From Magnetococcales bacterium (lineage in GTDB: Bacteria > Pseudomonadota > Magnetococcia > Magnetococcales > Magnetaquicoccaceae), in NCBI GenBank assembly GCA_015232825.1, contig JADFYY010000011.1:1-36039 (forward strand): a stretch of 36,039 nt of DNA, in the 5' to 3' direction. Numbering within the stretch: position 1 is the stretch's first letter; each line of letters starts with the position of its first letter. This document shows positions 857 to 28,397 of the stretch, one piece after another. The position numbers and the translations under genes were made by a program. The notes below the pieces were generated by a model, which was not told where the DNA came from, ran no database searches, and saw nothing but the letters and a program-made list of their open reading frames with translations.

Positions 857-1471
857 TTATTGCGTGGCCGTTGGAGAGGCTTCAGACACGGTTATTTTTT
901 TATATTCAGAAGGAATTTCAAATAATTGTGGATCCTGCTTGCCTTCTTTGATGTTGCTTAACTCCATGCTGAGCCCATCCGGGTACTGCTCACGAATGGC
1001 CATTTGCAAGCGCGAATCGACCCAAAGGTGGGCATGGGGGATTTCCCGGTTTTCCTCCCGGATGGCAATGGCCCAGTGAACAACCGACCGACCGTGGAAG
1101 GTTTCCGCACCGATTTGACGGCACAAAAACGCCTTGTTGGTGCGACAGGGACTGCCCGGTTCATCGGGAAGGGGGGGGCGGGAGACCTCGACTCCTGTGC
1201 GCTCTGTATAGCTCTTTTGCCCAGGTAGCAAAGTCAGGACCGTTTTTTGCGCAAGCTTGTGAATCAAGGTAATGGCCGTACCCTCGTGGATGGATTCGCT
1301 GCGAACGCCATCGGGTCCAACAAACAGCTTTCCCGTCGTTGAGGTTTTGCGATCCGCCTGAAAACGGGTCACATCGGCGGAAAATGACACACTCTCTTTG
1401 CTGGCCGCCCATAGAGCCGACGTCAATAGCAATAGAGTCAGTCCGAAAAGGGATGCCACAGTCGTTCTCAT
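857..1471 (-). CDS. Exported DUF4412 / LolA-fold-like protein
   Basis: The product has 204 residues. An N-terminal signal peptide (MRTTVASLFGLTLLLLTSAL, then WAASK) is followed by one beta-rich domain. Its pattern resembles DUF4412-type periplasmic proteins: GKLFVGPDGVRSES near the start, a central LLPGQKSYTE, two cysteines (PC and LC) around residues 110-120, then HLWVDSRLQMAIREQYPDG and a closing LFEIPSEYKKI. These proteins have folds like the lipoprotein carrier LolA, but the ligand is generally unknown. The ATG lies one base after the TGA of the upstream gene (stop 1473-1475), which suggests translational coupling. The frame is open further upstream, but that part overlaps the neighbouring gene antisense to nothing useful and lacks a signal peptide. 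The family call is moderate; the exported location is well supported. Confidence 0.7.
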   Translation of the reverse strand: MRTTVASLFGLTLLLLTSALWAASKESVSFSADVTRFQADRKTSTTGKLFVGPDGVRSESIHEGTAITLIHKLAQKTVLTLLPGQKSYTERTGVEVSRPPLPDEPGSPCRTNKAFLCRQIGAETFHGRSVVHWAIAIREENREIPHAHLWVDSRLQMAIREQYPDGLSMELSNIKEGKQDPQLFEIPSEYKKITVSEASPTATQ

Positions 1472-1472
1472 G

Positions 1473-2147
1473 TCAATAACGTTCCCTCGGTTGATATCGG
1501 TCACTCTCCCAAGGATCCCAGGGAGAAGTGGAGCGATTTCTAGAGCCGCGCCACCAGGGGTCCACCTCGTAACTTGGCTCAGGATAGTCTCGATACCTCT
1601 CCTGGCGCAAAGGCCGATCTCGGTACTCCTCCCTTTGATAGGGGCCATCCCAGTAGGGTGAGGAACGGGAAGGATAAGGGTCTGAATCGCGCGAATATCG
1701 GCGTGGAGTCGTTCGTCTGCGCCAATCATTCTCGATGAATGGGTCATTGTTATCGCTTGGTGGCCCTTCTCGTAGGTCTGCGGGATAATCTTCCAATGCA
1801 GACGGGATCTCTCCCCAAGGACGGTTCTTCTTTCCTGGAAGACGGGTATCTTCGTTATAGTCCCAAATGCGCGGGGTGCGTTGTTCTTGTGTGGGGTATG
1901 GATACCGTTCTTGTTGCCACCATGAATCTCTCCTTTCTTGATCCCTGTAGTCTCGTTGCGGGGGGTCATTTTTGGGTTTTTGAAAGGGGGAGTGGTTGGG
2001 GTCCACTCGGTAGAGTCCAGACGACCAGTTCGGTTCATCCGCTGCATGAATCACGGGAGAGAGGATCCATAACAAACCGATAACGCCAGATCCCATGAGG
2101 CATTTAAAAGTGCGGGACAATGCCGTATGGTGAACCATGATTCTCAT
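1473..2147 (-). CDS. Exported Arg/Tyr/Asp/Pro-rich low-complexity protein
   Basis: The product has 224 residues. The start is chosen at the ATG at 2147 because it overlaps the TGA of the preceding gene as ATGA. Residues 1-35 form a signal peptide ending around IHAADEP. The rest is strongly enriched in Arg, Tyr, Asp, Pro and Trp, with RDYRD, RYPYP, SPYWDG, REEYRDRP and DPWWRGS motifs and no predicted globular core. It shares composition and YWD/RYRD-type motifs with the proteins at 2144-2713 and 1-668. No known family is recognised. Its position between an RND permease and an exported DUF4412-like protein suggests a periplasmic or surface role linked to the pump, which is inference only. Confidence 0.72.
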   Translation of the reverse strand: MRIMVHHTALSRTFKCLMGSGVIGLLWILSPVIHAADEPNWSSGLYRVDPNHSPFQKPKNDPPQRDYRDQERRDSWWQQERYPYPTQEQRTPRIWDYNEDTRLPGKKNRPWGEIPSALEDYPADLREGPPSDNNDPFIENDWRRRTTPRRYSRDSDPYPSRSSPYWDGPYQREEYRDRPLRQERYRDYPEPSYEVDPWWRGSRNRSTSPWDPWESDRYQPRERY

Positions 2148-12981: not shown

Positions 12982-15849
12982 CTAGTTGGCGTCCAACACA
13001 AACCTGCGCCGGATATAGAGCGCGTCCCCCCACGATGCGTGCCAGGGACAGGTGAGTGCGACACGGATAAAGCCTTGTTCTTCGAGAAAATCATCCATTT
13101 CATCAATCTGCGCACATCCCGTATACAGCTCTTCAAAATTGACTTCTACATTGATGGCCTCGATGTGACGCAATTGTTCGCAAGCCCCGCGTAGTGCCGC
13201 CAGTTCGGCACCTTGGATATCCAGCGAGAGAATCGTATAGTGGGTCGGATCCAAATGAAATTCAGCCATTAGGTCATCCAGAGGGGATGTTTCCACCTCT
13301 ACGCTCCCCACCTCGACAATAGATGGGTAATGGGTGTTGTGTCGGGCTGGGGGCAAAATGGAACTGCTCATGTCCGCAGACATCAAATGCAATGACGTAA
13401 CTCCTGCGCGATCCGATACGGCCCGCAAGATGGTGAAGAGGTCTGGTTGTTGGCCGACCGTGGCGACCAGCCGGGTATATACGGCTGGATTGGCTTCGAT
13501 GAAGACAATGGGTGAGATCCCCATGGCCCGGTAGGTGGCCAGTTCACCCCCTTCATGGGCACCAATATGAATGACCCCCTTGGGAACAATGGCATGCCGT
13601 TTCAATTCGGCGGCAAGATCGATCATGGTTTTGGAATGGTTGAACAAGAGCGGTATCAAACGCCCATGAATGGCCAGACAAAGATCCCCGGTATCCGGTT
13701 CTGTCCCGGTTGATAGATCAATCAAGTTGTTGTTTTTAATTGAAAATAAATAATACCCTTTGCCTGTAAGAAAAGGACGCAGTTTTGGAAATCCCTCTGG
13801 CGTGGCAATCATGGCGATGGTGTCGATTCGGGCGTGTTTGAACAGACGCGCACTCCCTTTCAGTAGATCAAAGGGGTCTTCTTCGGCCCCTAGATGGAGC
13901 AGATTGATATGGGATATTCCTTTGGTTCGATAAAAATGGTCCACATCTGTCAGTGAGCGTGAAAGGGTGTGAATGGTATGGTCTGCATTGGCCTTGAGAA
14001 CCGCGCGGGTCCAGATCACGGAACAGTCGCCAAGATGACAGATAACGGCTTTTTGATGCAGAAAATGGTCAATCAGCCACTGCTCCGAGGCTGATATGGA
14101 TTTCGGTTTGTCTAATAAATTCAATAAAATATCGTTGTTCCACGGGTCAAAGGGAAAGAGACCTCCCGAAGCAAAATCAGGACAAAAGCAACGTACCTTT
14201 GGCGAATAAGCAAGCATGCAGGCCATCATGGAAAAGGTGCTGATCGATATGGCGATGAGATCGGCGTGACGCAACATCTCAAAATCGATTAAGTATTCGG
14301 CCCCCTTGATGGGAGTTGGTGCAATCAGGGTATCGCTGACAGGGTGAAACCGGGCAAAAGCCGTTACCAAGGATGGGTCATCGCTGGCCACGTACAGGAT
14401 GGGATGGTTCAAACTCTCCCAGATGGTGTCTAGCCATGCGAGATACCATTCCGCAGGTGCGATCCGAAACTGTCCATAGCCGTAATCACCGCGACGCAGA
14501 TGGAGCGCGACCAGTGTGGCCCCAGGCACAGAAGTTTGACGCAACCGCCTTAAGGCATCCTCAATGGTGGGGGCCACCCGTTGGCTGAGAGTAAAGCTGG
14601 ATTGCCAAAGGGAACGATAAGGGGCTAATGTCGCTGTGTGACCAATGAAATATCCAAAGATATCCACGTTCACCAAAGGTTCAACCGCTTTTGGTTCCAA
14701 CAGGGCGAACCAATCAACCGCTTTCTCGTCAATGGAACGGCACTCTCGTGATGGCAAAGGATCATCCAAATCAAACAGGTAACGACCAATCCAGATTGGG
14801 GTTTGCACTTCTAGGTTATGTCGGGCGGCATAGCAACGCATGAAACCATACTGAAAAAGTTGGTTGGCAAACCGTCCATAGATGCCCAGTCTTGTGGAGG
14901 TGATGCAATGGCGGTTCATGTCTGGGGAGCGAGGTGGTGGCGGTTCGCCCCAGGCCAGTCGCATCCCTAATAGGCCGTGACGTGTGAACGCTTCCGCACT
15001 GCCCTCATTGAGCTGCATCGCCCGCTTCCAAGATTGCATGGCCATGAGCGGTTGTTGCGTGTTTTCAAACTCTTGGGCAGCGTGTACCGCCGCATTAAAG
15101 GCGTTGGCAATGCCTGAATGGTGGGCCATGGTGAGCGCGTCGGCTAGTTCCGTGTTGCCTGCATCCAAAAGGTTTTGTCTGGTTGTGTCAAAAACCTGTT
15201 TGTCAAGTGTGCCGCTATGGGCTTGCGAGAAGATGGCCGTTAAAATGGAGATCACCCCTTCTGTGTGGAACTCTTGGGTGTTGCGTGCAATATAATGGCT
15301 GTTGGTAAAACTTTCACAGGAGTCCTGATAGTCGGGAATGGGAAGCAGACCGTGGGGGGTGATGCGGTAAAGGAGAAAGCCATGCTGGGTCAACAGAAAA
15401 TATAAATCATGAAAAAAAGTGCGTGTATGGATACTGGTATTGGAAAATTTAAATTGAATCACACGGGTTTTGGCGAGTGCATCGCCAAATCCTTTTAATA
15501 CCGTCCATTCGTCTTCTTTGAGATCGATTTTGACGATGTCAATGTGGCGTTCTGCCAGTTCTTGTCGCCAATAATCGGCAAAGGGTCGTTTCTTGAAGTT
15601 AACCTCGGTGGGTTCAAAAATGTGAATCTCTATGTTGGGGAATTTTTGGCGCAACGGGTGCGCATGGAGCCCAGCCGTCTCCCCAATCGCAATGGCCAGC
15701 ATTGGCGTGACATCGAGTTGACTGGTGAGTATGTCTACCTCTTGTTCAATGTTTTCTGTTTGATATCCTTTGCCAAGTGCGTGGGCAATATTGGTTGCCA
15801 GATTGCTCAACAGATGGCTCAACTCTATGGGGAATAGCCCTTTATCCAT
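12982..15849 (-). CDS. Multi-module FkbM methyltransferase-like / GT11 fucosyltransferase-like protein
   Basis: The product has 955 residues and at least four modules. Module 1 (about 1-190) resembles the C-terminal half of FkbM methyltransferases (IDIVKIDLKEDEWTVLKGF, RVIQFKFSNTSIHTRTFF, YRITPHGLLPIPDY). Its SAM-binding half looks shortened. A helical TPR-like stretch follows (about 220-310). Module 2 (about 315-590) is GT11 alpha-1,2-fucosyltransferase-like: GRFANQLFQYGFMRCYA, the GDP-fucose motif HLRRGDYGYGQF, and ADLIAISISTFSMMACML. Module 3 (about 600-730) is another shortened FkbM-like segment (INLLHLGAEEDPFDLLKGS). Module 4 (about 750-955) is a complete FkbM domain: GVIHIGAHEGGELATYRAMG, VFIEANP, ILSLDIQGAELAALRGA. 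AAGGA precedes the ATG. It is the last gene of the glycosylation operon, 36 bases after the GT41 gene. Probable role: fucosyl transfer and O-methylation of a surface glycan. Confidence 0.82.
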   Translation of the reverse strand: MDKGLFPIELSHLLSNLATNIAHALGKGYQTENIEQEVDILTSQLDVTPMLAIAIGETAGLHAHPLRQKFPNIEIHIFEPTEVNFKKRPFADYWRQELAERHIDIVKIDLKEDEWTVLKGFGDALAKTRVIQFKFSNTSIHTRTFFHDLYFLLTQHGFLLYRITPHGLLPIPDYQDSCESFTNSHYIARNTQEFHTEGVISILTAIFSQAHSGTLDKQVFDTTRQNLLDAGNTELADALTMAHHSGIANAFNAAVHAAQEFENTQQPLMAMQSWKRAMQLNEGSAEAFTRHGLLGMRLAWGEPPPPRSPDMNRHCITSTRLGIYGRFANQLFQYGFMRCYAARHNLEVQTPIWIGRYLFDLDDPLPSRECRSIDEKAVDWFALLEPKAVEPLVNVDIFGYFIGHTATLAPYRSLWQSSFTLSQRVAPTIEDALRRLRQTSVPGATLVALHLRRGDYGYGQFRIAPAEWYLAWLDTIWESLNHPILYVASDDPSLVTAFARFHPVSDTLIAPTPIKGAEYLIDFEMLRHADLIAISISTFSMMACMLAYSPKVRCFCPDFASGGLFPFDPWNNDILLNLLDKPKSISASEQWLIDHFLHQKAVICHLGDCSVIWTRAVLKANADHTIHTLSRSLTDVDHFYRTKGISHINLLHLGAEEDPFDLLKGSARLFKHARIDTIAMIATPEGFPKLRPFLTGKGYYLFSIKNNNLIDLSTGTEPDTGDLCLAIHGRLIPLLFNHSKTMIDLAAELKRHAIVPKGVIHIGAHEGGELATYRAMGISPIVFIEANPAVYTRLVATVGQQPDLFTILRAVSDRAGVTSLHLMSADMSSSILPPARHNTHYPSIVEVGSVEVETSPLDDLMAEFHLDPTHYTILSLDIQGAELAALRGACEQLRHIEAINVEVNFEELYTGCAQIDEMDDFLEEQGFIRVALTCPWHASWGDALYIRRRFVLDAN

Positions 15850-15885: not shown

Positions 15886-17799
15886 TCAAGACCACAACCG
15901 ACCATCTCCAGGCATGTATCGCAACCGGTTTTTCTCACTCAACTGTTTTGTGTAGGCCGCAACCAGTTCGTCCACGCTTTTACACCAAACCCCCTCCTGA
16001 TCCAACTCAATGCCGATTTCTTGATAATTTTCAAGGTTGAATAAATTGGGTCGTGGCACCCGATTTTGCCGAAAATCCTCCCGCAATTGTTCAAACAATC
16101 CCTCCAGATGTTTGGCTAAACCCGGCATGTCAAACAATCGGCACGTTTCACGTCCAGCTTGCAAACGCTGACGAAAGCCCTGCAATAACGCCCGATTGGT
16201 GGCAAGTTCCACAGCACGGGCCTCGAACTCTTCAGGAGAGTGACAAACCAGTTCCGCCAAACCAGCCGAACTGACCAGACTGCCGCAAACCCGTGACGCA
16301 AAGCTGAGTCCAGATAAGGTTAAGATCGGCACACCCATCCACAAGGCATCCGAGGCCGTGGTGTGGGCACCATACGGAAAAGAGTCCAATACCAAATCCG
16401 CCAATGGATAACGGGCCAGATGGTCCCAATTCGCAATCATGGGTGCGAAAACCAAACGATGAGAGCCAATCCCCTGTGCCGTGGCCAACTCAAGCAATCG
16501 ATTCCGCGCCGTATCGTTTTCATACAGCAACCACATCACGCTCTCTGGCACTCGATGGAGAATGCGACACCAAATCTCCCAAGTGAACGCCGTGATCTTG
16601 CGCACCCCATTGAAACAACAGAATACCATAGATTCCTCTGGCAAGCCAACGTCTCGTCGAGAGGGACGATGGGAGGAGATTGCACGCCGACGATCATTGG
16701 GCTGATAGCAGGGGAGTCGCAACACCCGTTCCGAATAGAAAATTTCATACCCTTCTGGCACAATAAATCCATCGGCAATGAGGTACTGATGGTACGGGCT
16801 GGCCATGGTCCCTGGATATCCGAGCCAATTGACAATGACCGGTGCAGGACGCATGGCGAGCATTTTCAACCGGGCCGTGTGGGTGTATCCGTTTACATCC
16901 ACTAAAATCTCAATTTGGTCAGCCACAATCCGTGCGGCGGCTTCTTCGTCTGGCAAAAAGGCCAAATCGCACCAATGCTCCGCCACTGCCCGGATTCGAT
17001 GATGAATCGGATCATCGACTGGCTGGCCTGTATAATAAAAAAACAGCTCCACTCGTTCACGGTCGTGCAGTTCAAACAGATCGACCATCAACAGACCAAT
17101 GGCATGCATGCGCAAGTCGGAAGAGAGATACCCAACCCGTGGACGGCGGGTGGCCTGGAGGTGTCGTAACGGCTCATGGGTATCTAGAAAGGTCTTGGAG
17201 GGTTGCTTGAATTCTGTTTTGTTGTACATGCGGGCATTGGCCAGTTGCAACAGTGGGTCATCGCTGTAGGCCGCCAAAGAGAGCGGGGCAAAACCGGTCA
17301 TTAACTGTTTTTTGGGACAGTTGGTAAATGGGGCGATAACCGGCCATTGGCACTGCTGCTGGCGGGAACTGATCCAATGCTCCATCACGTCGTGCTGTCG
17401 GGGAAGTAGCTCTAAACTCTGTTGCAAGGCCGCCTCAACGCGGGTGGCATCCGCAACACGGCCAATTTGTTTGAGTGCGGAGTTTTTGTAATTCAAGTTG
17501 TCTGGGGTGAGTTGCCCCAGTCGCTCTACCAGTTGTCGCCAACAGGCAACCGCCTCATCCTTAGCCCCCAACTGCTCTAGGATACCGCCTAAATTAATCC
17601 TGGCGGCATGAAAATCAGGATGCAGTCGCAGAGCCTCGCTGTAGGCGTGTCGTGCTGCAGGCCAATCTGGAATGGAGCTGAGGGCAACCCCAAGATTATA
17701 CCAAACCAGTTGTTCGTAAGGGTGGCCAACATTGTGCGCCAACCACTCCTGATAGATCTCAACCCTTTGTGGATGATCGGCGGTTAATTCAGGCACCAT
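15886..17799 (-). CDS. TPR-containing GT41 (SPINDLY / O-GlcNAc-transferase-like) glycosyltransferase, third copy
   Basis: The product has 637 residues. The ATG at 17799 lies two bases after the upstream stop, with GGAG 8 bases before it. Upstream in-frame codons would overlap the preceding gene. Two to three TPR-like repeats (about 20-110; YNLGVALSSIPDWPAARHAY) precede the GT41 catalytic domain. Visible motifs are VGYLSSDLRMHAIGLLMVDL with the histidine equivalent to human OGT His498, VDVNGYTHTARL, VNWLGYPGTMASPYHQYLIA, CFNGVRKITAFTW with the conserved catalytic lysine, and HTTASDALWMGVPIL with the HTT nucleotide-binding residues. It is homologous to both halves of the neighbour at 17802-22211. 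GT41 enzymes add a sugar to Ser/Thr of proteins; bacterial members often modify flagellins or surface proteins. The acceptor is unknown. Confidence 0.92.
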   Translation of the reverse strand: MVPELTADHPQRVEIYQEWLAHNVGHPYEQLVWYNLGVALSSIPDWPAARHAYSEALRLHPDFHAARINLGGILEQLGAKDEAVACWRQLVERLGQLTPDNLNYKNSALKQIGRVADATRVEAALQQSLELLPRQHDVMEHWISSRQQQCQWPVIAPFTNCPKKQLMTGFAPLSLAAYSDDPLLQLANARMYNKTEFKQPSKTFLDTHEPLRHLQATRRPRVGYLSSDLRMHAIGLLMVDLFELHDRERVELFFYYTGQPVDDPIHHRIRAVAEHWCDLAFLPDEEAAARIVADQIEILVDVNGYTHTARLKMLAMRPAPVIVNWLGYPGTMASPYHQYLIADGFIVPEGYEIFYSERVLRLPCYQPNDRRRAISSHRPSRRDVGLPEESMVFCCFNGVRKITAFTWEIWCRILHRVPESVMWLLYENDTARNRLLELATAQGIGSHRLVFAPMIANWDHLARYPLADLVLDSFPYGAHTTASDALWMGVPILTLSGLSFASRVCGSLVSSAGLAELVCHSPEEFEARAVELATNRALLQGFRQRLQAGRETCRLFDMPGLAKHLEGLFEQLREDFRQNRVPRPNLFNLENYQEIGIELDQEGVWCKSVDELVAAYTKQLSEKNRLRYMPGDGRLWS

Positions 17800-17801
17800 T
17801 C

Positions 17802-20800
17802 TTAAGGCTCCACAGAGTGCAATCGTTTCAATACCCGCTCTCGATGCTCGGAAGTAAACGATTCGTTTTGCAAAAGGGCGCGTGCTGGGGTAAGGATCCG
17901 TTCGTTCAACCAAGCCCGTTGCTCAAACGGCAATTGTGCGATCTGCGTGACAAGATTTTTGGCTCCCCTAGCCACTTCATCCCCATTGTTGAAAATGACC
18001 CCGCCAAGGCATAAGGCGATAGAGATTATGGCGTGACAATGGCCACCATTGGCAAGCAGCATGGCGACGATATAGGCCGAACGGACGCGACCAGTCGCGA
18101 GCAGTTCAGCAGTGGCAAAGATCTTCTCTTGCGGGTCATGTTGCGCCTGCTCAGTGAATTGCAGCAAAGGCTCCAATGCACCAGCCTCATCCAATTCCAG
18201 TAGGGTTGCCAAAAAGCCGTTTTTGCGGTAGGCATGGCGGCGGCGCATATCTTTGGACCACAACCGTCCATCTTCAGGGATGTGATTCAAGCGGTCGCGT
18301 TCGATCAGTTTTTCTAGATAGGCCTCAGACAAGCGGTCAATCGTTTCAAACCAGACACCATCTTGGTCGAGTTCAATGCCAATCTCTTGGTAGAGTTCAA
18401 GATTGGATAAATCCGGTCGCGGCACTTGGTTTTGCCAGAATGCCTCGCGCATTGCCAAAAACAGCCCCTCCAGACGGGCCACTAGGGCCGGGAGATCAAA
18501 CAAAACACAAGAGTGGCGATTGGCAATCAATCGTTGACGATAGGTCTGTAATAATGGACGGTTGAAGGCCAGCTCCACCGCACGGGCTACAAAAGTCTCT
18601 GGGGTGGTGCAGACCAGTTCTGGCAATCCAGCGGAGGTGACCAGACTGCCACACACCCGCGCAGGAAAGGAGAGTCCTGCCATCGTCAGGATCGGCACCC
18701 CCATCCAAAGGGCATCGGAGGCGGTGGTATGTGCCCCATAGGGGGTGGAGTCCAGCATCAAATCAGCCAAAGGATACCGGGCCAGATGGGCGGGATTGGG
18801 CAGTCGAGAGGAGAAAATCACCCGCTCAGGCGCGATTCCATTGGCGGCGGCCATTTCATGTAAACGTTTTTTAATGGGGTCAAATTCGCAAAGCAGCCAC
18901 AACACACTGTTAGGCACCTGTTGTAGAATCTGCATCCAGAGGTGCCAAGTAAAGGCCGTGATTTTTTTGGGTTCGTTGAAACAACTGTAGACCATTACCC
19001 CTTCTGGCAATCCGGCCTCCAATCGAGTTGGCTGGCGCGGGTCTACCACACGTTGCCGGTCATTGGGCTGATAACAGGGCAGACGGACCACTCGTTCTGA
19101 ATAAAAAATCTCTAGTTCTTCCGGGATGATGAACCCATCGGCCAGGATATAATTGTGATAGGGACTCCCCATGCTCCCTGGATATCCAAGCCAATTGACA
19201 ATGACCGGCGCAGGACGCATCGCCAACAGCTTGGTGCGGGCACTATGGGTGTATCCATTGACATCGATCAGAATCTCGATGCGATCCTCGATGATCAATC
19301 GGGCGGCTTCGATATCCGTCAAGCCAGAGATCTCCCGCCATTGCTCCACTGCGGCCCTGGTTCTAAGCCGGATTGGGTCGTTGGACTCAACCCCAGTGGA
19401 GTAGGCGAAAATCTCGACTTGTTGACGATCATGCAGCTCAAAAAGTTCCGCCATCAGATAGCCGATGGCATGGAGCCGTAGGTCAGAAGAGAGGTACCCA
19501 ACCCTGGGACGAAGGGAAGGGGTGACGCGCAAGGCATGGTGGGTGGCGTGAAACGTCGGTTGCGGCTGACCGATCTCTGCTTGATGATATCGATGGGCAT
19601 TGGCCAATTGTAGCATGGGATCATCGGTATGAATCGCCAAAGACAATGGCGCAAAGCCCTTCATGATGCGCCTCCGGTCACACTGGGCAAAGGGCTCGAT
19701 GACCGGCCATTTGCACAATCCTTGTCGATTGACGATCCAATGCAGCAGGGATTCGGGCTGATGCGGGGTGATCTCTAGGCTTTGCCGCAAGGCCTCCTCG
19801 GCGGCCACTGGATCGCTCACACGGGCAATCTGTTGCAAGGCAGAGATTTTGAGTCCAATGGTTTCGCCCACGACTGCGGAGAGACGGTCAACCAGTTGTT
19901 GCCAACAGGCCACAGCCGCTTGAGTGGAAACCAGTCGTTCCAACACATTGCCTAGATTGATATAGGGAGGATAAAAATCGGGTTGCAAGCGAATCGCTTC
20001 GCTGAAAGCCTGCTTCGCCTCTGCCAGTGCATTGGAATTAAGCAGAAGAACACCATGATTATAATGAATATAATGGGCCTGGGGATGGGCCGGGTTGCTT
20101 GCCAGCCACTGTTGATATAACCGAATGGCCTGATCCATCTGGCCAGCCCCTGTCAGCACGTCCGCATGACCGATCAGATCTGCCAAATTTAAATTCATCG
20201 GTGAAAATCCTTGTTTGGTTTGGGTATGATGGCGACGAATATTCTCATTCCATAGACGCTTGTCTTCGATAAGGCCAGTCAAGCGGTCCCATTCGAGCAA
20301 TTTTTCCAGATAGGCTGAAGTCAGATTTTCTATTGTTCCAAACCAGACCCCTCCTTGGTCCAATTCAATGCCAATCTCTTGGTAAATGTCGAGGTTGGTA
20401 AGGTCGGGTCGTGGAATTCGGTTTTGCTGGAAATCGTTCCACATGGAAAAATACAATTTTTCCAAACAAGAGACCAGGGAAGGGGTGTCAAACAGAACGC
20501 AGGTATCTCGTCCATCGCGCAATCGTTGACGAACCGATTGCAACAGTGTCGGGTTTTTACCGAGTTCCACAGCACGGGCCACGAACGCTTCGCTTGTGGT
20601 ACAGACCAATTCCGCCAATCCAGCGGCCCGAACCAAACTGCCACAGACTCTCGACGCAAAGGAGAGTCCAGCATAAGTCAAAACAGGCACCCCCATCCAT
20701 AGGGCGTCTGAGGCGGTGGTATGGGCTCCATAGGGAGAGGAGTCCAGCATCAGGTCCACTAAGGCATAGCGGGCCATATGTTCTGCATTGTTTAAGCGAG

Positions 20801-22211
20801 GAGCAAACAGGATTCGTTCTGGTGCAACCCCCTGCAAGGCTGCCAGTTCGAGCAGACGCCCCTTGGCCACCTCGTTTTCAAACAGCAGCCACAAAACACT
20901 CTGGGGTACTTGTCGCAATATCTCCATCCAGAGGTGCCAAGTATAGGAGGTGATTTTTTTGACCCCGTTGAAACAGCCATAAACCATAACCGCCTCAGGG
21001 AGTCCAGATTCGCTTCGGGAGGGGTAATGGGGGGCAACAACGCGCTTTCGGTCGTTTGGTTGATAACAAGGTAAACGTACCACCTGTTCTGAATAAAAAA
21101 TTTCATGCCCTTTTGGGATGATGAATTCATCGGCAATGAGGTATTGATGATAGGGTGAGCCCATGGTTCCTGGATAGCCAAGCCAGTTGACAATGACCGG
21201 CGCGGGACGCATGGATAGCAGTTTGGTGCGGGAGCTATGGGTATAGCCATTCACATCAATGAGGATTTCGATGCGGTCTGCAAGAATCTGCGCAGCGGCT
21301 TCTGGGTCGGATAGGGTGGAGAGGTCTTGCCAATGTTCCACGGCATTGCGGATTCTTTGTCGGATCGGATCCTCGAATTGGGGGCCAATGGAGTAGACAA
21401 AAATCTCAACTTGTTGACGGTCATGGAGTTCAAAAAGTTCTACCATTAGATAACCGATGGCATGAATTCTTAAATCCGAGGAGAGATAACCGATCCTGGG
21501 GCGTGCGCCAGGGGTGGCGCGTAAGGGTTCATGGTGATCCAGAAAGGTTGGTTGCGGTTGACCAATCTCGGATTGATGAAAATAGCTGGCGTTGGCCAAC
21601 TGTAGCATTGGATCGTCGGTATAAACCGCCAGTGACAACGGGGCAAATCCTTTCATCAGGTCTCTTTTGTCGCACGAACCAAACGGTTCAATGACTGGCC
21701 ATTTGCACTGCAACTGACGGGCATTGATCCAATGCTCCATGGCTTCATGCTGATGGGGATTGATCTCTAAGCTGTGCTGCAAGGCGGTTTCGGCTTCTGC
21801 CATGCCAAGGACACGGGCAATTTGTTTTAAGGCAGAGGTCTTGTAGCCAATGGCTTCAGCATTCACCGAAGGCAATCGATCTGCAAGACGCTGCCAACAG
21901 GCGGCGGCCTCCATGGGGGAAACCACTCTCTCCAGCACATTCCCAAGATTGATATAGGGGGGATAAAAATCTGGATTCAATCGGATCGATTCCTCAAAAG
22001 CCGCTTTCGCTCCTGGAAGGTCGCTGATATTAAGCAATAAAATTCCATAATTATAATGAACAGCATAGGCAAGCGGCTGGGTTGAGTTGTGTGCCAGCCA
22101 CTGCCGGTACAGCTCAATGGCCACATCCGTCTGACCAGAATTCATCCGTTCACCAGCTTGAATGATCAGGTCCGTTAGACTTAATGCTTGAATTTCATTT
22201 AAATCTGGCAT
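17802..22211 (-). CDS. Double GT41 (SPINDLY / O-GlcNAc-transferase-like) protein with extra C-terminal helical domain
   Basis: The product has 1469 residues. The ATG at 22211 has AAGGAG 6 bases upstream; more upstream in-frame starts run into the divergent gene. Two complete TPR-GT41 modules lie in one chain: about 1-671 and 672-1320. Each has TPRs (YNYGILLLNISDLPGAKAAF; YNHGVLLLNSNALAEAKQAF), the histidine in GYLSSDLRIHAIGYLMVEL or its variant, NWLGYPG, the lysine in CFNGVKKIT or CFNEPKKIT, and HTTASDALWMGVP. Both modules therefore look active. The last 148 residues form an added helical domain of no recognised family. Module 2 begins with an internal ATG at 20198 that still has an AAGGA 9 bases upstream, so the protein probably arose by fusion of tandem duplicates. 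It is the first gene of the glycosylation operon. Confidence 0.92.
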   Translation of the reverse strand: MPDLNEIQALSLTDLIIQAGERMNSGQTDVAIELYRQWLAHNSTQPLAYAVHYNYGILLLNISDLPGAKAAFEESIRLNPDFYPPYINLGNVLERVVSPMEAAACWQRLADRLPSVNAEAIGYKTSALKQIARVLGMAEAETALQHSLEINPHQHEAMEHWINARQLQCKWPVIEPFGSCDKRDLMKGFAPLSLAVYTDDPMLQLANASYFHQSEIGQPQPTFLDHHEPLRATPGARPRIGYLSSDLRIHAIGYLMVELFELHDRQQVEIFVYSIGPQFEDPIRQRIRNAVEHWQDLSTLSDPEAAAQILADRIEILIDVNGYTHSSRTKLLSMRPAPVIVNWLGYPGTMGSPYHQYLIADEFIIPKGHEIFYSEQVVRLPCYQPNDRKRVVAPHYPSRSESGLPEAVMVYGCFNGVKKITSYTWHLWMEILRQVPQSVLWLLFENEVAKGRLLELAALQGVAPERILFAPRLNNAEHMARYALVDLMLDSSPYGAHTTASDALWMGVPVLTYAGLSFASRVCGSLVRAAGLAELVCTTSEAFVARAVELGKNPTLLQSVRQRLRDGRDTCVLFDTPSLVSCLEKLYFSMWNDFQQNRIPRPDLTNLDIYQEIGIELDQGGVWFGTIENLTSAYLEKLLEWDRLTGLIEDKRLWNENIRRHHTQTKQGFSPMNLNLADLIGHADVLTGAGQMDQAIRLYQQWLASNPAHPQAHYIHYNHGVLLLNSNALAEAKQAFSEAIRLQPDFYPPYINLGNVLERLVSTQAAVACWQQLVDRLSAVVGETIGLKISALQQIARVSDPVAAEEALRQSLEITPHQPESLLHWIVNRQGLCKWPVIEPFAQCDRRRIMKGFAPLSLAIHTDDPMLQLANAHRYHQAEIGQPQPTFHATHHALRVTPSLRPRVGYLSSDLRLHAIGYLMAELFELHDRQQVEIFAYSTGVESNDPIRLRTRAAVEQWREISGLTDIEAARLIIEDRIEILIDVNGYTHSARTKLLAMRPAPVIVNWLGYPGSMGSPYHNYILADGFIIPEELEIFYSERVVRLPCYQPNDRQRVVDPRQPTRLEAGLPEGVMVYSCFNEPKKITAFTWHLWMQILQQVPNSVLWLLCEFDPIKKRLHEMAAANGIAPERVIFSSRLPNPAHLARYPLADLMLDSTPYGAHTTASDALWMGVPILTMAGLSFPARVCGSLVTSAGLPELVCTTPETFVARAVELAFNRPLLQTYRQRLIANRHSCVLFDLPALVARLEGLFLAMREAFWQNQVPRPDLSNLELYQEIGIELDQDGVWFETIDRLSEAYLEKLIERDRLNHIPEDGRLWSKDMRRRHAYRKNGFLATLLELDEAGALEPLLQFTEQAQHDPQEKIFATAELLATGRVRSAYIVAMLLANGGHCHAIISIALCLGGVIFNNGDEVARGAKNLVTQIAQLPFEQRAWLNERILTPARALLQNESFTSEHRERVLKRLHSVEP
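20198..20212 (-). promoter_or_regulatory. Relict or active internal ribosome-binding site within the double GT41 gene
   Basis: On the minus strand AAGGA (20212-20208) precedes an in-frame ATG (20198-20196) by 9 bases, exactly where module 2 begins (MNLNLADLIGHADVL). It may still allow separate translation of the second GT41 module. Confidence 0.45.
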
Positions 22212-22259
22212 CCCCGACTCCTTGTTCATAGATTCCCGTTGACTTTTCGTAAAAATCAC

Positions 22260-22288
22260 ATCATGACTTATGCAAATTTCACAGCCAA
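22260..22288 (-). promoter_or_regulatory. Candidate promoter of the GT41 operon
   Basis: On the minus strand TTGGCT (22288-22283) and CATGAT (22265-22260) are spaced by 17 bases, about 50 bases before the ATG at 22211. Both boxes match consensus only at four of six positions. Confidence 0.35.
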
Positions 22289-22368
22289 GTGAGAATCTTT
22301 GCGGTGGAATTCTAAAAAATGAGAATTTAAAAAGTTGGATCAATGGATATGGATAAAGGATAGCGATA

Positions 22369-23499
22369 ATGAATATAAAGGTGGTACTGCTTTTGATGAT
22401 GGTGTTGGCGGGATGCGTGACGGTTGATGAAAAAAACAGTGCCACGACAACGGCTTTCCCACTATTTTGGCCCATGCCTCCAGAGCAACCACGCTATGCA
22501 TGGGAGGGGGTATTCCAAACCGCTAATGACGTGCAATTAAAGAAAAATAACGATGATCTTTTAAAACAGGCTATTGGATATGCCTCGGAAGCCAAAAAAA
22601 TTTTTAAAAAACCGGTTCGTGTGGCCGCAGCCAACGGGCGGGTTTTTGTGACCGATTCCATGACCAAGTCGGTCCATGTTTTTGATGCGGTTCGGCGGCG
22701 TTATTTCATGTTTGGATTTCGATTTCAAGGGGCGTTGGTGCAGCCTTTGGGGGTGGCGGTGGATGGTGCAGGACAGGTTTATGTGGTGGATGCCGGGAGA
22801 AAGGTGATCGTGGTTTATGATGAGATGGGTCTGTGGATGCGTAACATTGGCGATAAGCTTGGGTTGGAGCGTCCTGGCGGGATAGCGGTCAGCCCATCCG
22901 GTGATCGGGTTTATGTGACAGACCGGGATCGCGCGGATTCTGATAATCATCTTTTGTGGATTTTTGACGGCCAGGGAAATCTGTTGCGCAAGGTGGGAAA
23001 ACGTGGAGCAGAAGATGGGGAGTTCAATTATCCCACCGATGTTGCGGTTGGCCCAGATGGCCGGGTGTTTGTGTTAGACGCTGGTAATTTCCGTGTGCAG
23101 ATTTTTGATCGGGAAGGGAAGTTTTTGCATAAATGGGGTCAGGTGGGTCGTTCTTTGGGACAGTTTGCCCGTCCTCGCACCCTTTCGGTGGATAAGGATG
23201 GCCTTATCTATGTGGTGGATGGGGCCTTTGCCAACATCCAAGTTTTCAATGATACGGGGCAACTGCTTTTGCCCATGGGAACGCGCGGCATGGAGGATGG
23301 TCCTGCTCGCTTTTCCTCTCCAGCTGGGATAGCTGTTGATGGTACTGGAAGGATTTTTGTTGTTGATCAATGGCTGCTTAAAGTTGAGGTGTTGCGCAAG
23401 CTGACCGATGCGGAAGGCAAGTCTGTACTGACCAATGGTGGAAAGATGTTACCAAGAGTCGAGAAAAAACCAAACATGGCGCAAGATTTGCAAAAATAA
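22369..23499 (+). CDS. NHL-repeat lipoprotein
   Basis: The product has 376 residues. A lipoprotein signal peptide ends in the lipobox LAGC (Cys16). A beta-propeller of NHL repeats follows from about residue 80. Clear repeats include PLGVAVDGAGQVYVVDAGRK, YPTDVAVGPDGRVFVLDAGN, ARPRTLSVDKDGLIYVVDGA and SPAGIAVDGTGRIFVVDQW. NHL propellers are scaffolds for protein or ligand contact. AAGGA lies about 8 bases before the ATG. The gene is divergent from the GT41 operon and 79 bases upstream of a multiheme cytochrome gene on the same strand, so both are probably cotranscribed. It may hold or present the cytochrome at the outer membrane, which is inference from pairing. Confidence 0.85.
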   Translation: MNIKVVLLLMMVLAGCVTVDEKNSATTTAFPLFWPMPPEQPRYAWEGVFQTANDVQLKKNNDDLLKQAIGYASEAKKIFKKPVRVAAANGRVFVTDSMTKSVHVFDAVRRRYFMFGFRFQGALVQPLGVAVDGAGQVYVVDAGRKVIVVYDEMGLWMRNIGDKLGLERPGGIAVSPSGDRVYVTDRDRADSDNHLLWIFDGQGNLLRKVGKRGAEDGEFNYPTDVAVGPDGRVFVLDAGNFRVQIFDREGKFLHKWGQVGRSLGQFARPRTLSVDKDGLIYVVDGAFANIQVFNDTGQLLLPMGTRGMEDGPARFSSPAGIAVDGTGRIFVVDQWLLKVEVLRKLTDAEGKSVLTNGGKMLPRVEKKPNMAQDLQK

Positions 23500-23578
23500 C
23501 TGTAAGCCCCAACACTACTTTCCATTCAGAAGTGGGTGAACATTTTGATTCACAACCATTTTATGGAGTGATCTTGCC

Positions 23579-24535
23579 ATGACTATCCCTACTTCTCTTC
23601 GTGATTTGTTCTCAAAAATGAGAATGCGCCGCTTTCGCTTCTCCATGGCCCTTGTCGTGGTGGGTGGGGTAGCGTTCGGCATGGCGCAGGCTGCAGATTA
23701 CCCAACCAATTTTAGCAATGTGGGGGGGATTGCCTATACACGGCACAATTTGACCCAATCCACCACGGGCATCAGTTCGGCGATGATGACTGTGCGGAAT
23801 AATTATGGTGAGGTCTGCGTCTATTGCCATACGCCCCATGGGGCCAACGAAAACATTGCGGCCCCATTGTGGAACCGCACCTTTAAAGATACCACCTATC
23901 AAACCTATGATCAGTTGGGGACATCCACTTTGACCGCCACAGTCAATGCCCCAGGATTGAATTCCCTTACTTGTCTCTCTTGTCATGACGGCACGGTGGC
24001 CATCGACTCCATCATCAATATGCCAGGCTCAGGACGATATAATGCCAACAGTCGTACCAGTCATCAGGAGGCGTTTCTCGACTCTTGGGTGGCTGTTCCA
24101 GGACAGACAACGGTTTCTGGCAAGCACCATGCCTTGGCTGAAAATTCACCGGCCACAACCGGTGGCTGCCTCTCCTGTCATAGTGGTCCCAACGGCCCTG
24201 AAGTGGCGACGGATTTCACGGTTGCTGCCATTGGCACCGATTTGCGTAACGACCATCCAGTGGGAATCGATATTCCCACTCCCCGTTTTGGCGTTGATTT
24301 CCGCGAACCAAACGTCAATCTGGATCGCATCTCCTTTTATGACTTGGATGGTGACTCCAAACCCGATGCCAATGAGATTCGTTACTATAAAACCGGTTCA
24401 ACGTATCGGGTGGAGTGTGCCTCCTGCCACGATCCCCATGGCGTCTCTCCTGCGGTTGGATCTCCTGTCCTTCCGACGTTTTTGCGTAAAACGAACGCGA
24501 GTAGCGCACTTTGTCTGACCTGTCATGCCTTGTAG
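23579..24535 (+). CDS. Exported five-heme c-type cytochrome
   Basis: The product has 318 residues. A signal peptide runs to about residue 39 (SMALVVVGGVAFGMAQAAD). Five CXXCH heme-binding motifs are visible: CVYCH (80-84), CLSCH (132-136), CLSCH (197-201), CASCH (280-284) and CLTCH (312-316). The paired arrangement and the CHTPHG and CHDPHG contexts fit the doubled-CXXCH cytochrome families. Further histidines, for example in SHQE, KHHAL and NDHPVG, could be distal ligands. An EF-hand-like loop DLDGDSKPDANE (about 255-266) lies between hemes 3 and 4, suggesting a calcium site. It is an electron carrier in the periplasm or at the outer face. A strong terminator follows. No reductase partner is encoded nearby, so the physiological donor and acceptor are unknown. 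Confidence 0.92.
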   Translation: MTIPTSLRDLFSKMRMRRFRFSMALVVVGGVAFGMAQAADYPTNFSNVGGIAYTRHNLTQSTTGISSAMMTVRNNYGEVCVYCHTPHGANENIAAPLWNRTFKDTTYQTYDQLGTSTLTATVNAPGLNSLTCLSCHDGTVAIDSIINMPGSGRYNANSRTSHQEAFLDSWVAVPGQTTVSGKHHALAENSPATTGGCLSCHSGPNGPEVATDFTVAAIGTDLRNDHPVGIDIPTPRFGVDFREPNVNLDRISFYDLDGDSKPDANEIRYYKTGSTYRVECASCHDPHGVSPAVGSPVLPTFLRKTNASSALCLTCHAL

Positions 24536-25240: not shown

Positions 25241-26104
25241 GTGCGCATCATGGAACTCCCGGAACAAATTTGTCGCTATCGTATCGATGGCATCCTGGGA
25301 CAAGGGGCAACGGGTATCGTCTATCAAGGATTTGATCCTAAAGAAGCACGCCCAGTGGCCATCAAGACCATTCCGTTCGCCCTATGGAATCAGGAAGCTG
25401 GACGTAACTTGGCAATCCGTCTGCGACGGGAAGCCTTGGTGGTCAAATCCCTCTCGCATGCCAATGTCACACTTGTCTACCTGACGGGAGAAGAAATGGG
25501 GGTTCCTTTTCTTGTCATGGAGTTGCATCATGGACAATCCCTCAAGGAACTGATTTTGACCGGGAGCAGACCATCCCGTATCCGTTGCATGGATATCATG
25601 CTGCAAACTTTGGCCGGACTGGGACATATTCATGCGCAAGGCATTGTTCATGGAGATATCAAACCCGCCAATATCATGCTTTTGATGAATGGTCAGGTCA
25701 AAATTACTGATTTTAGTGCCGCTCATTTTGTCAATGATCCCACACCCTCCATGAACAAAGTAACCGGAACCCATGGATATATGGCTCCTGAGCAACTCAT
25801 GGGACAACGAACCGATTTGCGGGCGGATCTTTTTGCTGCGGGCGTCATCCTCCATGTGTTGCTCACCGGGGTTAAACCTTTTGTCGGGAATGGGGCGCAA
25901 GCCATTACCCGTAATATTTTGACATCCATGCCGTCTGACCCCACATCTTTTGATGACTCCATCCCCGCGCCCTTTTATGCGGTTATAAAAAAGGCACTGG
26001 CCAAACAACCCCGTGATCGTTTCCAGAACGCTGAAACCTTCCAGGATGCCATCAAAATGGCGGATGAGAATCTCTATTCTCACCACACGGGACCGCACCT
26101 TTAA
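25241..26104 (+). CDS. Ser/Thr protein kinase (Hanks type), kinase domain only
   Basis: The product has about 287 residues. Kinase subdomains are clear: glycine-rich loop GILGQGATGIVYQGF (about 18-32), ATP-binding lysine in VAIKTI (about 43), hinge LVMELHHG, catalytic loop IVHGDIKPANIMLL with HGD replacing HRD, DFS in place of the metal-binding DFG (ITDFSAAHF), activation segment GTHGYMAPEQLMG and DLRADLFAAGVILHVLLTG. No transmembrane or sensor domain follows, so it is cytosolic. The start is uncertain: GTG at 25241 (AAGGA 4 bases upstream) or ATG at 25250 (13 bases). It follows the carbonic anhydrase gene and converges with the 684-residue protein, overlapping its stop over four bases (TTAA). 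The substrate is unknown; the neighbour is a candidate. Confidence 0.93.
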   Translation: MRIMELPEQICRYRIDGILGQGATGIVYQGFDPKEARPVAIKTIPFALWNQEAGRNLAIRLRREALVVKSLSHANVTLVYLTGEEMGVPFLVMELHHGQSLKELILTGSRPSRIRCMDIMLQTLAGLGHIHAQGIVHGDIKPANIMLLMNGQVKITDFSAAHFVNDPTPSMNKVTGTHGYMAPEQLMGQRTDLRADLFAAGVILHVLLTGVKPFVGNGAQAITRNILTSMPSDPTSFDDSIPAPFYAVIKKALAKQPRDRFQNAETFQDAIKMADENLYSHHTGPHL

Positions 26105-28155
26105 AGAAATTTTTCTGGTTCCTCCCCAGCAATGGTGCGGGCGGCAATGTGTTTCATGAGAGGTAACTCATGCAATGGACGTCCCCGATAGAGTTCTCGC
26201 GCTAGGATGGCAAAGTTGAAATCCATACCAACCAATTTTTTCTCTTTGGCAGATTGTTCTTGCAACCAAAAGGCGGTCCAGGCAAACCGTTCTGCCCAGG
26301 CCTCCCGATTGGGCTCACAAAACAGATCTAAAACGCGACGAATCAATGTCTCCTTGTTGCGAATGCGGTTGCTTTTTATGAAGGTGACAACTTCTTGGCT
26401 CTCTTCAAACCAAGAGTTTGTTATTAATGGGATTTCCCCCCAAACGCCACTGGTCTGAATGACCATTTTCAAGGTATTGAGATCATCGGTCATGGCCTGG
26501 TTCTCTTGGATCAGTCGCTCGACTAAAACGGTCGCATCAATCCGTTCTGGCATCCATGTGGTCGCGGCCATGGTCTCGGCCAGTTGCAATAAACCAACCA
26601 TCGGGGGATTGCCCTTTTCCAAACCTATGGCAATATGGTGTCTGACTGCGGCATGCATGTAATCTTGGGAGATATCTAGAAATAGCTCTTTTTGTCCAAC
26701 TTGACGAAGGGTTTGTGAGGCCTCTTGTTTGGAGATGGGTGGGGTGATCCATGCATCGGCAATGCCGACGTGTTGTTTTAATAAAATGGCCCCGATGCGG
26801 GATTTTCTCCCTTCCACGGCCATGGAAAACATCATGGATTGCGCCCCAACACCATCAATTTGTGACGATTGCAGGGCACTTAAAGCGGTTCCGGTTGACC
26901 ATTGGGCACATTCAACCCCCTTGATCCGGGCGGACTTGATCAGTGCGTCCAACAGTTTGCGATCTTTTCCCGGTAGCCAGTTGCGAATGACGATCAACCG
27001 TCGCAAAGCAGTCGGTGTCATGAATTGGGCATTTTTTTTCAACCATTGCAAAGCTTCTTGACGCACCGCCTCTTCGGTATTCAAGCATAACAGGACCACG
27101 GCGTCCTTCATGCCGGGAAGATTGGAGTAGGCAAACTCTCCGATCAGGGCAGATTGGGCCTCCAATGGCAAGGCGCGGGTCATTTGCGCCAAGGTCTCGC
27201 TGATGGCAAACGGATCCCCTCCATGCTCATCTACCAAGTTTTCAAACATGGCATCAATCTGCCCACGGGTTGGAACCTCCATGTGTGGGGCATAATGAGT
27301 GAGTTGATATTCATAAATATCCAGTAACTCCTGGATATATTCCAGCTTGGCTTCTGTGATGGATTCCAGGATGCCCATCAATAATTGCGGCGAGATGTTG
27401 TTGGCTTGCGTCTGTTTGACGACCATCAATTGGAATTCGTGGTTGAGTTCTTTGGCCCAATCGAAATGACGTTCGACACCAAAGCGAATGTTTTGCAAGG
27501 ATTGGGAAAGCAGCATGAAATAGGCACTCACCTCATAATCATTCGGGGAGTCGAGAGAGAACTGTTCCATTAAAAGTTGCAAGACATCAAATATTAAAAT
27601 GGGATATTTTTCATAACTTTGCATGGCTTCCCCAGAAATCATCGCGGGTCGCTCCTTGGCGATCTCTTTGGCGATTTGGGCGGCAAACAGGCGCAGTTCG
27701 CTTTGGACGTTTGCGGACTCTGGACCAAAGCGGTCTGTTACTGCTTTTTTACCACGGGGATTGTCGTTGATGGAGACACTCTTGAGGCTTCTCTCTTGCA
27801 CGCGATTCACGGCACGAGTTAACGTCATTCCGTTGTTGATCCGTCCAGTCTCTTCGAGATACCCGAAAAAGGCGACCAGTACGGGTGGCAGTGCTAAGAG
27901 AGTGGGCTCTTTCAGAAGGCCGCTCCTAGGGAGAGTCTCCAAGCAACAGCTCTCCACGGATTGGGCGGTCCATTTTTTTGGAATGCGTCCATGCTGACTG
28001 TACATCATTTTAACGAATAGGATAACAATTTGATTGCATTCTTTTTTTTGTTTATTTGTCAGGCCACCAAAGCGTTGGCTTCCGGCAAACTCCTGGAGCC
28101 ATGTCGCTGTCTGTTGTTGGAGAGACTCTAAATTTTTGTCCGCATACCCATCCAT
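26101..28155 (-). CDS. Large helical protein of unknown function, convergent with the kinase
   Basis: The product is 684 residues from the ATG at 28155, which has AAGGG about 10 bases upstream. Further upstream codons encode an unlikely N-terminus. No signal peptide or transmembrane segment is apparent. The sequence is rich in Leu, Ala, Gln and Glu and looks mostly alpha-helical. The stretch about residues 320-440 (ALIGEFAYSNLPGMKDAVVL, TEEAVRQEALQWLKKNAQF, RLIVIRNWLPGKDRKLLDAL) has a HEAT-repeat-like rhythm. No motif links it to a known enzyme. Its stop overlaps that of the Ser/Thr kinase on the other strand. It could be a scaffold or substrate linked to kinase signalling, but only proximity supports this. 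I do not recognise the family. Confidence 0.75.
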   Translation of the reverse strand: MDGYADKNLESLQQQTATWLQEFAGSQRFGGLTNKQKKECNQIVILFVKMMYSQHGRIPKKWTAQSVESCCLETLPRSGLLKEPTLLALPPVLVAFFGYLEETGRINNGMTLTRAVNRVQERSLKSVSINDNPRGKKAVTDRFGPESANVQSELRLFAAQIAKEIAKERPAMISGEAMQSYEKYPILIFDVLQLLMEQFSLDSPNDYEVSAYFMLLSQSLQNIRFGVERHFDWAKELNHEFQLMVVKQTQANNISPQLLMGILESITEAKLEYIQELLDIYEYQLTHYAPHMEVPTRGQIDAMFENLVDEHGGDPFAISETLAQMTRALPLEAQSALIGEFAYSNLPGMKDAVVLLCLNTEEAVRQEALQWLKKNAQFMTPTALRRLIVIRNWLPGKDRKLLDALIKSARIKGVECAQWSTGTALSALQSSQIDGVGAQSMMFSMAVEGRKSRIGAILLKQHVGIADAWITPPISKQEASQTLRQVGQKELFLDISQDYMHAAVRHHIAIGLEKGNPPMVGLLQLAETMAATTWMPERIDATVLVERLIQENQAMTDDLNTLKMVIQTSGVWGEIPLITNSWFEESQEVVTFIKSNRIRNKETLIRRVLDLFCEPNREAWAERFAWTAFWLQEQSAKEKKLVGMDFNFAILARELYRGRPLHELPLMKHIAARTIAGEEPEKFL

Positions 28156-28397
28156 GACCGCATCACCCTTTGATTGCTGAACTATAAGATCTTTCAAGTT
28201 TATCGTGTTTGGAACTGCTTGGAAATGGCTTCTTTTTTTGGATAGGCATCGAGACGAAATTTGTTGAAAAAAATAAGGTATAAAAATTGCAAACAAATGC
28301 TGAAGCCGTCGATTATGTCAGACAAAATTTTGGCATTTTCTCGTCTGGTGAGTCAATTCAAATTGTTTGGTTTTTTGATCACAACGGACCCTTGAGT

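Follow-up and report, generated by a model that had tools for sequence, protein, structure and literature searches.

The DNA analysed here, referred to as the window, is a stretch of 36,039 nucleotides from a Magnetococcales bacterium (assembly GCA_015232825.1, contig JADFYY010000011.1). On its minus strand, two genes of the glycosyltransferase family GT41 precede a long mosaic gene, in which FkbM-like parts are joined to a module related to GT11 fucosyltransferases. The features needed below are the following.

12982..15849, minus strand: 955-residue fusion protein (A, TPR, GT11-like, X, F), a single open reading frame
15274..15804, minus strand: module A, an FkbM relic, residues 16-192, a profile match in which positions 72-142 are absent
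14950..15264, minus strand: TPR-like alpha-helical part, residues 196-300, from model and alignment
14080..14919, minus strand: GT11-like fucosyltransferase module, residues 311-590, from alignment and fold
14485..14502, minus strand: HxRRGD of the GT11 module, residues 450-455, conserved in the alignment
14242..14244, minus strand: Ile536 of the GT11 module, where 86 of 88 alignment rows have Asn
13636..14076, minus strand: module X, an FkbM relic, residues 592-738, a profile match in which positions 64-136 are absent
12985..13635, minus strand: module F, a complete FkbM methyltransferase, residues 739-955, from Pfam, an NCBIfam-type profile and conserved columns
13546..13578, minus strand: SAM motif I of F, GVIHIGAHEGG, residues 758-768, from the alignment
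13204..13224, minus strand: DIQGAE motif of F, residues 876-882, from the alignment
15886..17913, minus strand: TPR-GT41 gene, a 675-residue reading frame (Pfam GT41, 253 bits) whose likelier start is the ATG at 17799
17802..22475, minus strand: gene with two TPR-GT41 units, a 1557-residue reading frame (Pfam GT41, 490 bits) with a likely start near 22229

The fusion gene begins with an ATG at 15849, about 9 nucleotides downstream of an AAGGA sequence, and its genome copy runs through 955 codons in one open frame with zero internal stops. Base composition and codon use are coding-like in all modules, with a positive codon score in each. The chain consists of a shortened FkbM part (A), TPR helices, the GT11-like module, a second shortened FkbM part (X) and a complete FkbM module (F). 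Reading frame, profile matches and alignment together bear out the four-part FkbM/GT11 mosaic proposed in a preliminary description of this DNA, and the reading frame with its two shortened FkbM parts is confirmed as genuine. All four modules listed in that description are present, but it had missed the alpha-helical TPR part at residues of about 196-300. Elsewhere in the window, a 731-residue reading frame (26101-28296, minus strand) with no Pfam or NCBIfam match lies beside a PknB-like kinase gene, a 396-residue reading frame (857-2047, minus strand) with no Pfam match lies downstream of an AcrB-like gene, and a gene for an NHL-repeat lipoprotein-like product and, after it, one for a multihaem cytochrome (22369-24535, plus strand) are divergent from the GT41 operon.

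The TPR-GT41 gene sits 36 bases before the fusion gene and starts about where the double-GT41 gene ends, and the fusion gene is probably the third gene of an operon behind the two GT41 genes. Both neighbours pass the Pfam cut-off and have TPR matches, and the two GT41 domains of the 1557-residue reading frame are 72% identical. The nearest solved relatives of the 675-residue product in the PDB are OGT and XcOGT, whereas SPY is farther away in sequence. Because of this, an O-GlcNAc-type transfer would be a likelier source of the first sugar than O-fucosylation.

An alignment of the GT11 module was used to scan one genome per species across about 85 thousand species, which returned 80 loci. FkbM, FkbM and GT11 occur in one chain in Okeania and other cyanobacteria, in Geobacteraceae, in a Deltaproteobacterium, in Paracoccaceae and in Phaeobacter. 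The set is itself known elsewhere, and the window holds a permuted, TPR-containing version of it. For example, chains from Geobacteraceae (L028), Okeania (L031), a proteobacterial MAG (L045) and Deltaproteobacteria (L057) unite the same families with the F subtype of the window, and GT41 is near in the last two; they differ in the order FkbM-FkbM-GT11, in an intact first FkbM and in having neither A nor a TPR part before GT11. F is followed by GT11, with no first FkbM, in Verrucomicrobia and Trichodesmium, and a Thiotrichales protein (L024) has GT11 first and then three FkbM-like parts. Proteins from two Magnetococcus-like genomes (G027 and G038) and from Neorhizobium (L016) share with the window a degenerate first FkbM, F and GT11 in one chain, but with GT11 last and with A absent or present as a separate intact gene; F is eroded in G027 and G038. 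In Neorhizobium sp. EC2-8, an intact A-type FkbM gene lies directly before the X-F-GT11 gene, and the latter (L016, 6466-8588) has a frameshift inside GT11 that marks either a pseudogene or a sequencing error. In Azospirillum, TPR-GT11 adjoins an X-F or FkbM-FkbM gene, and three of these loci (L025, L029 and L046) share with the window both the TPR-GT11 junction and a short X with the same missing stretch, but as two convergent genes rather than one chain. Because the same set recurs in Azospirillum, in Neorhizobium and in the FkbM-FkbM-GT11 chains, the window protein gathers co-travelling modules in a new order. A whole-chain alignment that contained mixed fragments showed low identities in the rows of the FkbM pair and was set aside.

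The GT11 module was found in three of 48 genomes of the window's taxonomic order, and in a sample of 398 genomes from its phylum only four matched an X-F profile at E < 1e-30, a distribution that suggests horizontal spread of the module set. Two candidate vehicles for the fusion were rejected: phage matches reach FkbM only, and the plasmid matches are relatives on Azospirillum and rhizobial replicons.

The association with GT41 extends well beyond the window. GT41 lies in the same chain as GT11 at 10 of the 80 loci and within 6 kb at six more, and Pfam confirms it in the same chain in L030, L032, L040 and L049 and as a neighbour in L024, L045 and L046. The same-chain cases are cyanobacterial and Phycisphaerales proteins, and one of them (L049) joins a shortened FkbM, FkbM, GT11 and GT41. 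In L045 a double-GT41 gene stands 40 bases before the FkbM-FkbM-GT11 gene, a layout close to that of the window. The preliminary description had placed the mosaic in one pathway with the GT41 genes, and the same-chain fusions and the L045 layout make that link stronger than could be seen from the sequence of the window. Taken as a whole, the interpretation in that description is supported in part. FkbM, GT11 and GT41 enzymes are each already known; in the searchable papers, we found no description of chains that join the three, and nothing on FkbM with a fucosyltransferase or with 2-O-methyl fucose.

Several of these loci deserve mention on their own account. Single FkbM-GT11-GT41 chains are encoded at 4876-8610 of L049 (Phycisphaerales, with the shortened first FkbM) and at 3841-8577 of L032 (Laspinema/Oscillatoria group). 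A single 1895-residue Planktothricoides chain (L030, 1114-6798) combines DUF4915, GT11, Glyco_trans_1_2, TPR and GT41. The window genome also has a DUF4915 gene, with a GT41 gene and HlyD as its neighbours (L135). At 2231-8239 of L136, a 1249-residue GT41 protein is encoded beside a Peptidase_C39 ABC transporter and a 709-residue protein containing Methyltransf_25, possibly for glycosylation of a type I-secreted protein.

We call the central module GT11-like because its score against PF01531, 14.1 bits, is below the Pfam gathering cut-off of 23.9; its relatives in L028, L030, L049 and L057 exceed that cut-off. Residues 311-590 align with about 85 relatives at identities of up to 46%, and H450, R452 and D455 are kept in 95-99% of 88 rows. 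The NSSFS motif reads ISTFS in the window, so that the Asn is gone while Ser-Thr-Phe-Ser is retained, and the module also deviates from the alignment at 547 and 556. We do not take Ile536 as proof of inactivity, because a profile alignment, albeit a weak one, puts a Val of POFUT1 at the lost Asn. The TPR and GT11 parts were modelled with confidence mostly above 80-90. The TPR part itself forms six helices (pLDDT about 80-96) and aligns with the Azospirillum TPR-GT11 proteins, and SPY/OGT structures are among the Foldseek matches of the TPR-GT11 model. Since the model of the GT11 fold matches FUT8 (E 3e-7), NodZ (TM 0.57 by target length) and POFUT2, the Pfam score understates a real fucosyltransferase-like module. 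The alignment of relatives, HxRRGD and the fold matches rule out a chance match; the earlier assignment to GT11, which depended on support from an alignment, thus has that support and a fold in addition, with HxRRGD kept and the Pfam score below the cut-off.

Module F has the hallmarks of a complete FkbM methyltransferase. It scores 101.3 bits against PF05050 (cut-off 22.7; a score for the whole protein) and 67.4 bits against TIGR01444 (cut-off 37.7), and it retains HIGAHEG, IEAN and DIQGAE along with 46 of 47 conserved columns. An AlphaFold2 model of X and F, built with 28 sequences, has a mean pLDDT of 92.7 and a pTM of 0.91; it predicts a folded X that packs on F. The structure predictions by module that the preliminary description had proposed are thus confident for X-F and for TPR-GT11, and of low confidence for A. 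The solved folds closest to X-F are those of nematode two-domain methyltransferases and ordinary class I methyltransferases, and a sequence search of the PDB with an X-F profile gave no match. The top fold matches are the phosphoethanolamine methyltransferases PMT-2 (4kri, 4ine), two-domain enzymes in which one half is non-working; they differ from X-F in family and substrate, and the likeness is a structural analogy only. In a Magnetococcus-like relative (L017), 17 of the 47 conserved F columns are changed, and because F erodes there, methylation may be dispensable in the Magnetococcus-like group. Two such genomes (L017, 8717-10819, and L018, 174-2147) have an F that is losing conserved residues and a GT11 module that is intact.

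The two shortened parts were compared with a profile of 258 positions, made from 10 intact FkbM modules that directly precede an F module in other genomes; A and X were left out, and therefore neither query contributed to it. Against this profile A reaches 55 bits and X 45 bits, compared with 6.6 bits for the best of 2000 shuffles and -1.7 for the fusion protein's own TPR and GT11 parts. Going by these matches, A and X share descent with intact FkbM modules. Each matches in two pieces around a common gap of 71-73 profile positions, or about 70 residues (72-142 in A, 64-136 in X), and judged by where it falls in a class I methyltransferase, this gap would cover the side of the SAM pocket formed by strand 3 and the hairpin. 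Motif I is DVGANxG in intact FkbM; A has AIGETAG at this place and X has HLGDCSV, and the DxEG motif is replaced by DLKE and GAEE, respectively. A complete SAM pocket (motif I, strand 3 region and DxEG) is therefore absent from both, and the profile gap and lost motifs agree with the earlier view that these parts lack much of the SAM-binding half.

A is a relic of another FkbM subtype than X, and its residues 90-188 are 47.5% identical to an intact Neorhizobium FkbM. A plasmid search with A alone gave four records only, and the A-type deletion was seen in none of the other genomes in which it was looked for. The predicted structure of A has low confidence, and the alignment used for it held no relatives of A.

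In intact modules, 119-128 residues separate motif I from the LLxG helix; in the window X this spacing is 56. It is 52-54 in three Azospirillum loci and in L022, 46 in the Phycisphaerales protein L049, whose sequence holds an unknown residue, and 85-95, with motifs lost, in Neorhizobium, G027 and Arenibaculum. A tree was made from 36 F modules, with nine shortened cases labelled. The shortened cases need at least four changes as against intact, the label must have been gained or lost three times or more if only branches with good support are counted, and the AU test rejects one common origin of the shortened X (p 9.5e-5). The tree has several long branches, and module swapping between genes could mimic repeated loss; for these reasons we say only that shortening of the first FkbM of the tandem pair more than once is supported by these sequences.

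Neutral decay is the main rival to a role for X as a half-domain. A and X could be mere leftovers of fusion in a chain that works through GT11 and F, kept since their removal would break the frame or a linker. The deletions and lost motifs would fit such decay, as would the erosion of F in the Magnetococcus-like relatives and the restriction of the shortened A to the window genome. However, A and X lie in an open frame with coding-like base composition, X retains a foldable core in a confident joint model with F, and several lineages keep the shortened half instead of losing it, although the Verrucomicrobia F-GT11 proteins show that a first FkbM can be wholly absent. We consider this explanation unlikely, but it is the most serious of the competitors.

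The reading that we prefer, to which we give an even chance of being correct, is that the fusion is a cytoplasmic glycan-tailoring enzyme, in which GT41 makes the start, GT11 adds a deoxysugar, F methylates, and X, perhaps with A, acts as a partner. GT41 would place the first sugar on a protein, and the TPR part of the fusion would hold the acceptor or the GT41 partner. The GT11-like module, by its family and fold, might then add a fucose-like deoxysugar from a GDP donor, and F, by its family and intact SAM motifs, might O-methylate the newly added sugar. X would be a folded half-methyltransferase that has no SAM pocket and serves F as a built-in partner packed against it, and the lost pocket of X and the joint model are consistent with a part in shaping the acceptor site or the stability of F. 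A would be a second relic, of the other FkbM subtype and probably of the same kind as X. This reading is based on the intact F, the pocketless A and X, the confident X-F model and the FUT8/NodZ-like fold of GT11, and also on the recurrence of the module set, the company of GT41, the distribution of the donor gene, the repeated shortening and the precedents described below. Counting against it are the want of a donor gene above the cut-off, Ile536 and the changes at 547 and 556, the eroding F of L017, a module A modelled at low confidence with no relatives, and the fact that no acceptor was recognised beside the cluster.

A GDP-mannose 4,6-dehydratase (gmd) above the curated cut-off was not found in the window genome, which is 77% complete. 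Among 16 genomes that carry the GT11 module, 14 have a true gmd, versus 6 of 14 control genomes, a comparison that may be biased by genomes rich in surface sugars. An acceptor protein was not recognised beside the fusion cluster. The window genome has several flagellin genes, and its two other GT41 genes lie in type I secretion-like surroundings, one beside HlyD and one beside a C39-domain ABC transporter; in Magnetococcus strain MO-1, the flagellins are heavily glycosylated and the flagellar sheath has a glycoprotein of more than 350 kDa (PMC7175107). For these reasons, our guess for the acceptor is either a flagellin or a large surface protein that is secreted. Separately, a 786-residue flagellin with a long insert between conserved ends is encoded near FlgK at 8886-11246 of L138.

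There are precedents for parts of this scheme. In rhizobia, noeI methylates the fucose added by nodZ (PMC3557214), a fucosyl transfer followed by fucose methylation as proposed for the fusion, and the NodZ fold matches the GT11 model; the rhizobial case differs in that the enzymes are separate, the sugar goes onto a Nod factor and NodZ falls in a different GT family. In flagellin glycosylation islands, GT41 occurs together with methyltransferase domains and FkbM (PMC4875605), and FlmG binds flagellin through its TPR part (PMC7591256). FlmG and the enterobacterial flagellin islands thus share TPR or GT41 enzymes with the window, and the islands have methyltransferase domains and FkbM partners; in the accounts covered, they have neither a GT11 fusion nor a shortened FkbM.

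Alternatively, the target may be a polysaccharide (LPS, capsule or EPS) or a lipid-linked oligosaccharide, and the neighbouring GT41 genes would then do something else. Gene clusters for polysaccharides often contain FkbM and GT11 enzymes, and the A. ramasamyi relatives sit among other glycosyltransferase and methyltransferase genes. However, GT41, a family of protein glycosyltransferases, is fused to GT11 and FkbM in several phyla, and a TPR part adjoins GT11, so that a polysaccharide target seems to us rather improbable.

It is less probable still, and by our estimate quite unlikely, that A and X bind a cofactor or aid catalysis otherwise (one way would be to complete the SAM site of F): X does pack against F in the model, but F has its own complete motif I and DIQGAE, and F-GT11 relatives manage with no first FkbM at all. 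That an assembly or binning artefact fused separate genes or removed sequence is highly improbable, since, although the fusion is known from a single contig of a 77%-complete MAG and nine of the ten other genomes of the genus have no match (the tenth has a distant FkbM only), all junctions are in frame and stop-free, which also disposes of the frameshift or assembly error considered in the preliminary description, the X deletion is found again in other genomes, and the GT11-first order recurs in the Thiotrichales protein.

The same-chain GT41 fusions are a concrete hint that, in bacteria, further sugars and a methyl cap can be added to a GT41 glycan. A broader and more tentative proposal, for which we put the chances somewhat below even, is that removal of the SAM pocket was both repeated and selected, and that it yields a cofactor-free half-domain that acts on the adjacent FkbM by shaping its acceptor site or its activity, with two subtypes of such a half-domain in the window. 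If this is true, there would be a whole class of glycan methyltransferases that consist of an enzyme and a built-in pseudo-enzyme. The tandem pairs give a natural series in which the first FkbM is intact, partly shortened, fully shortened or absent. Such a series lets the role of a pseudo-methyltransferase be tested directly, and it bears on whether 'dead' domains play any part in the decoration of surface glycans.
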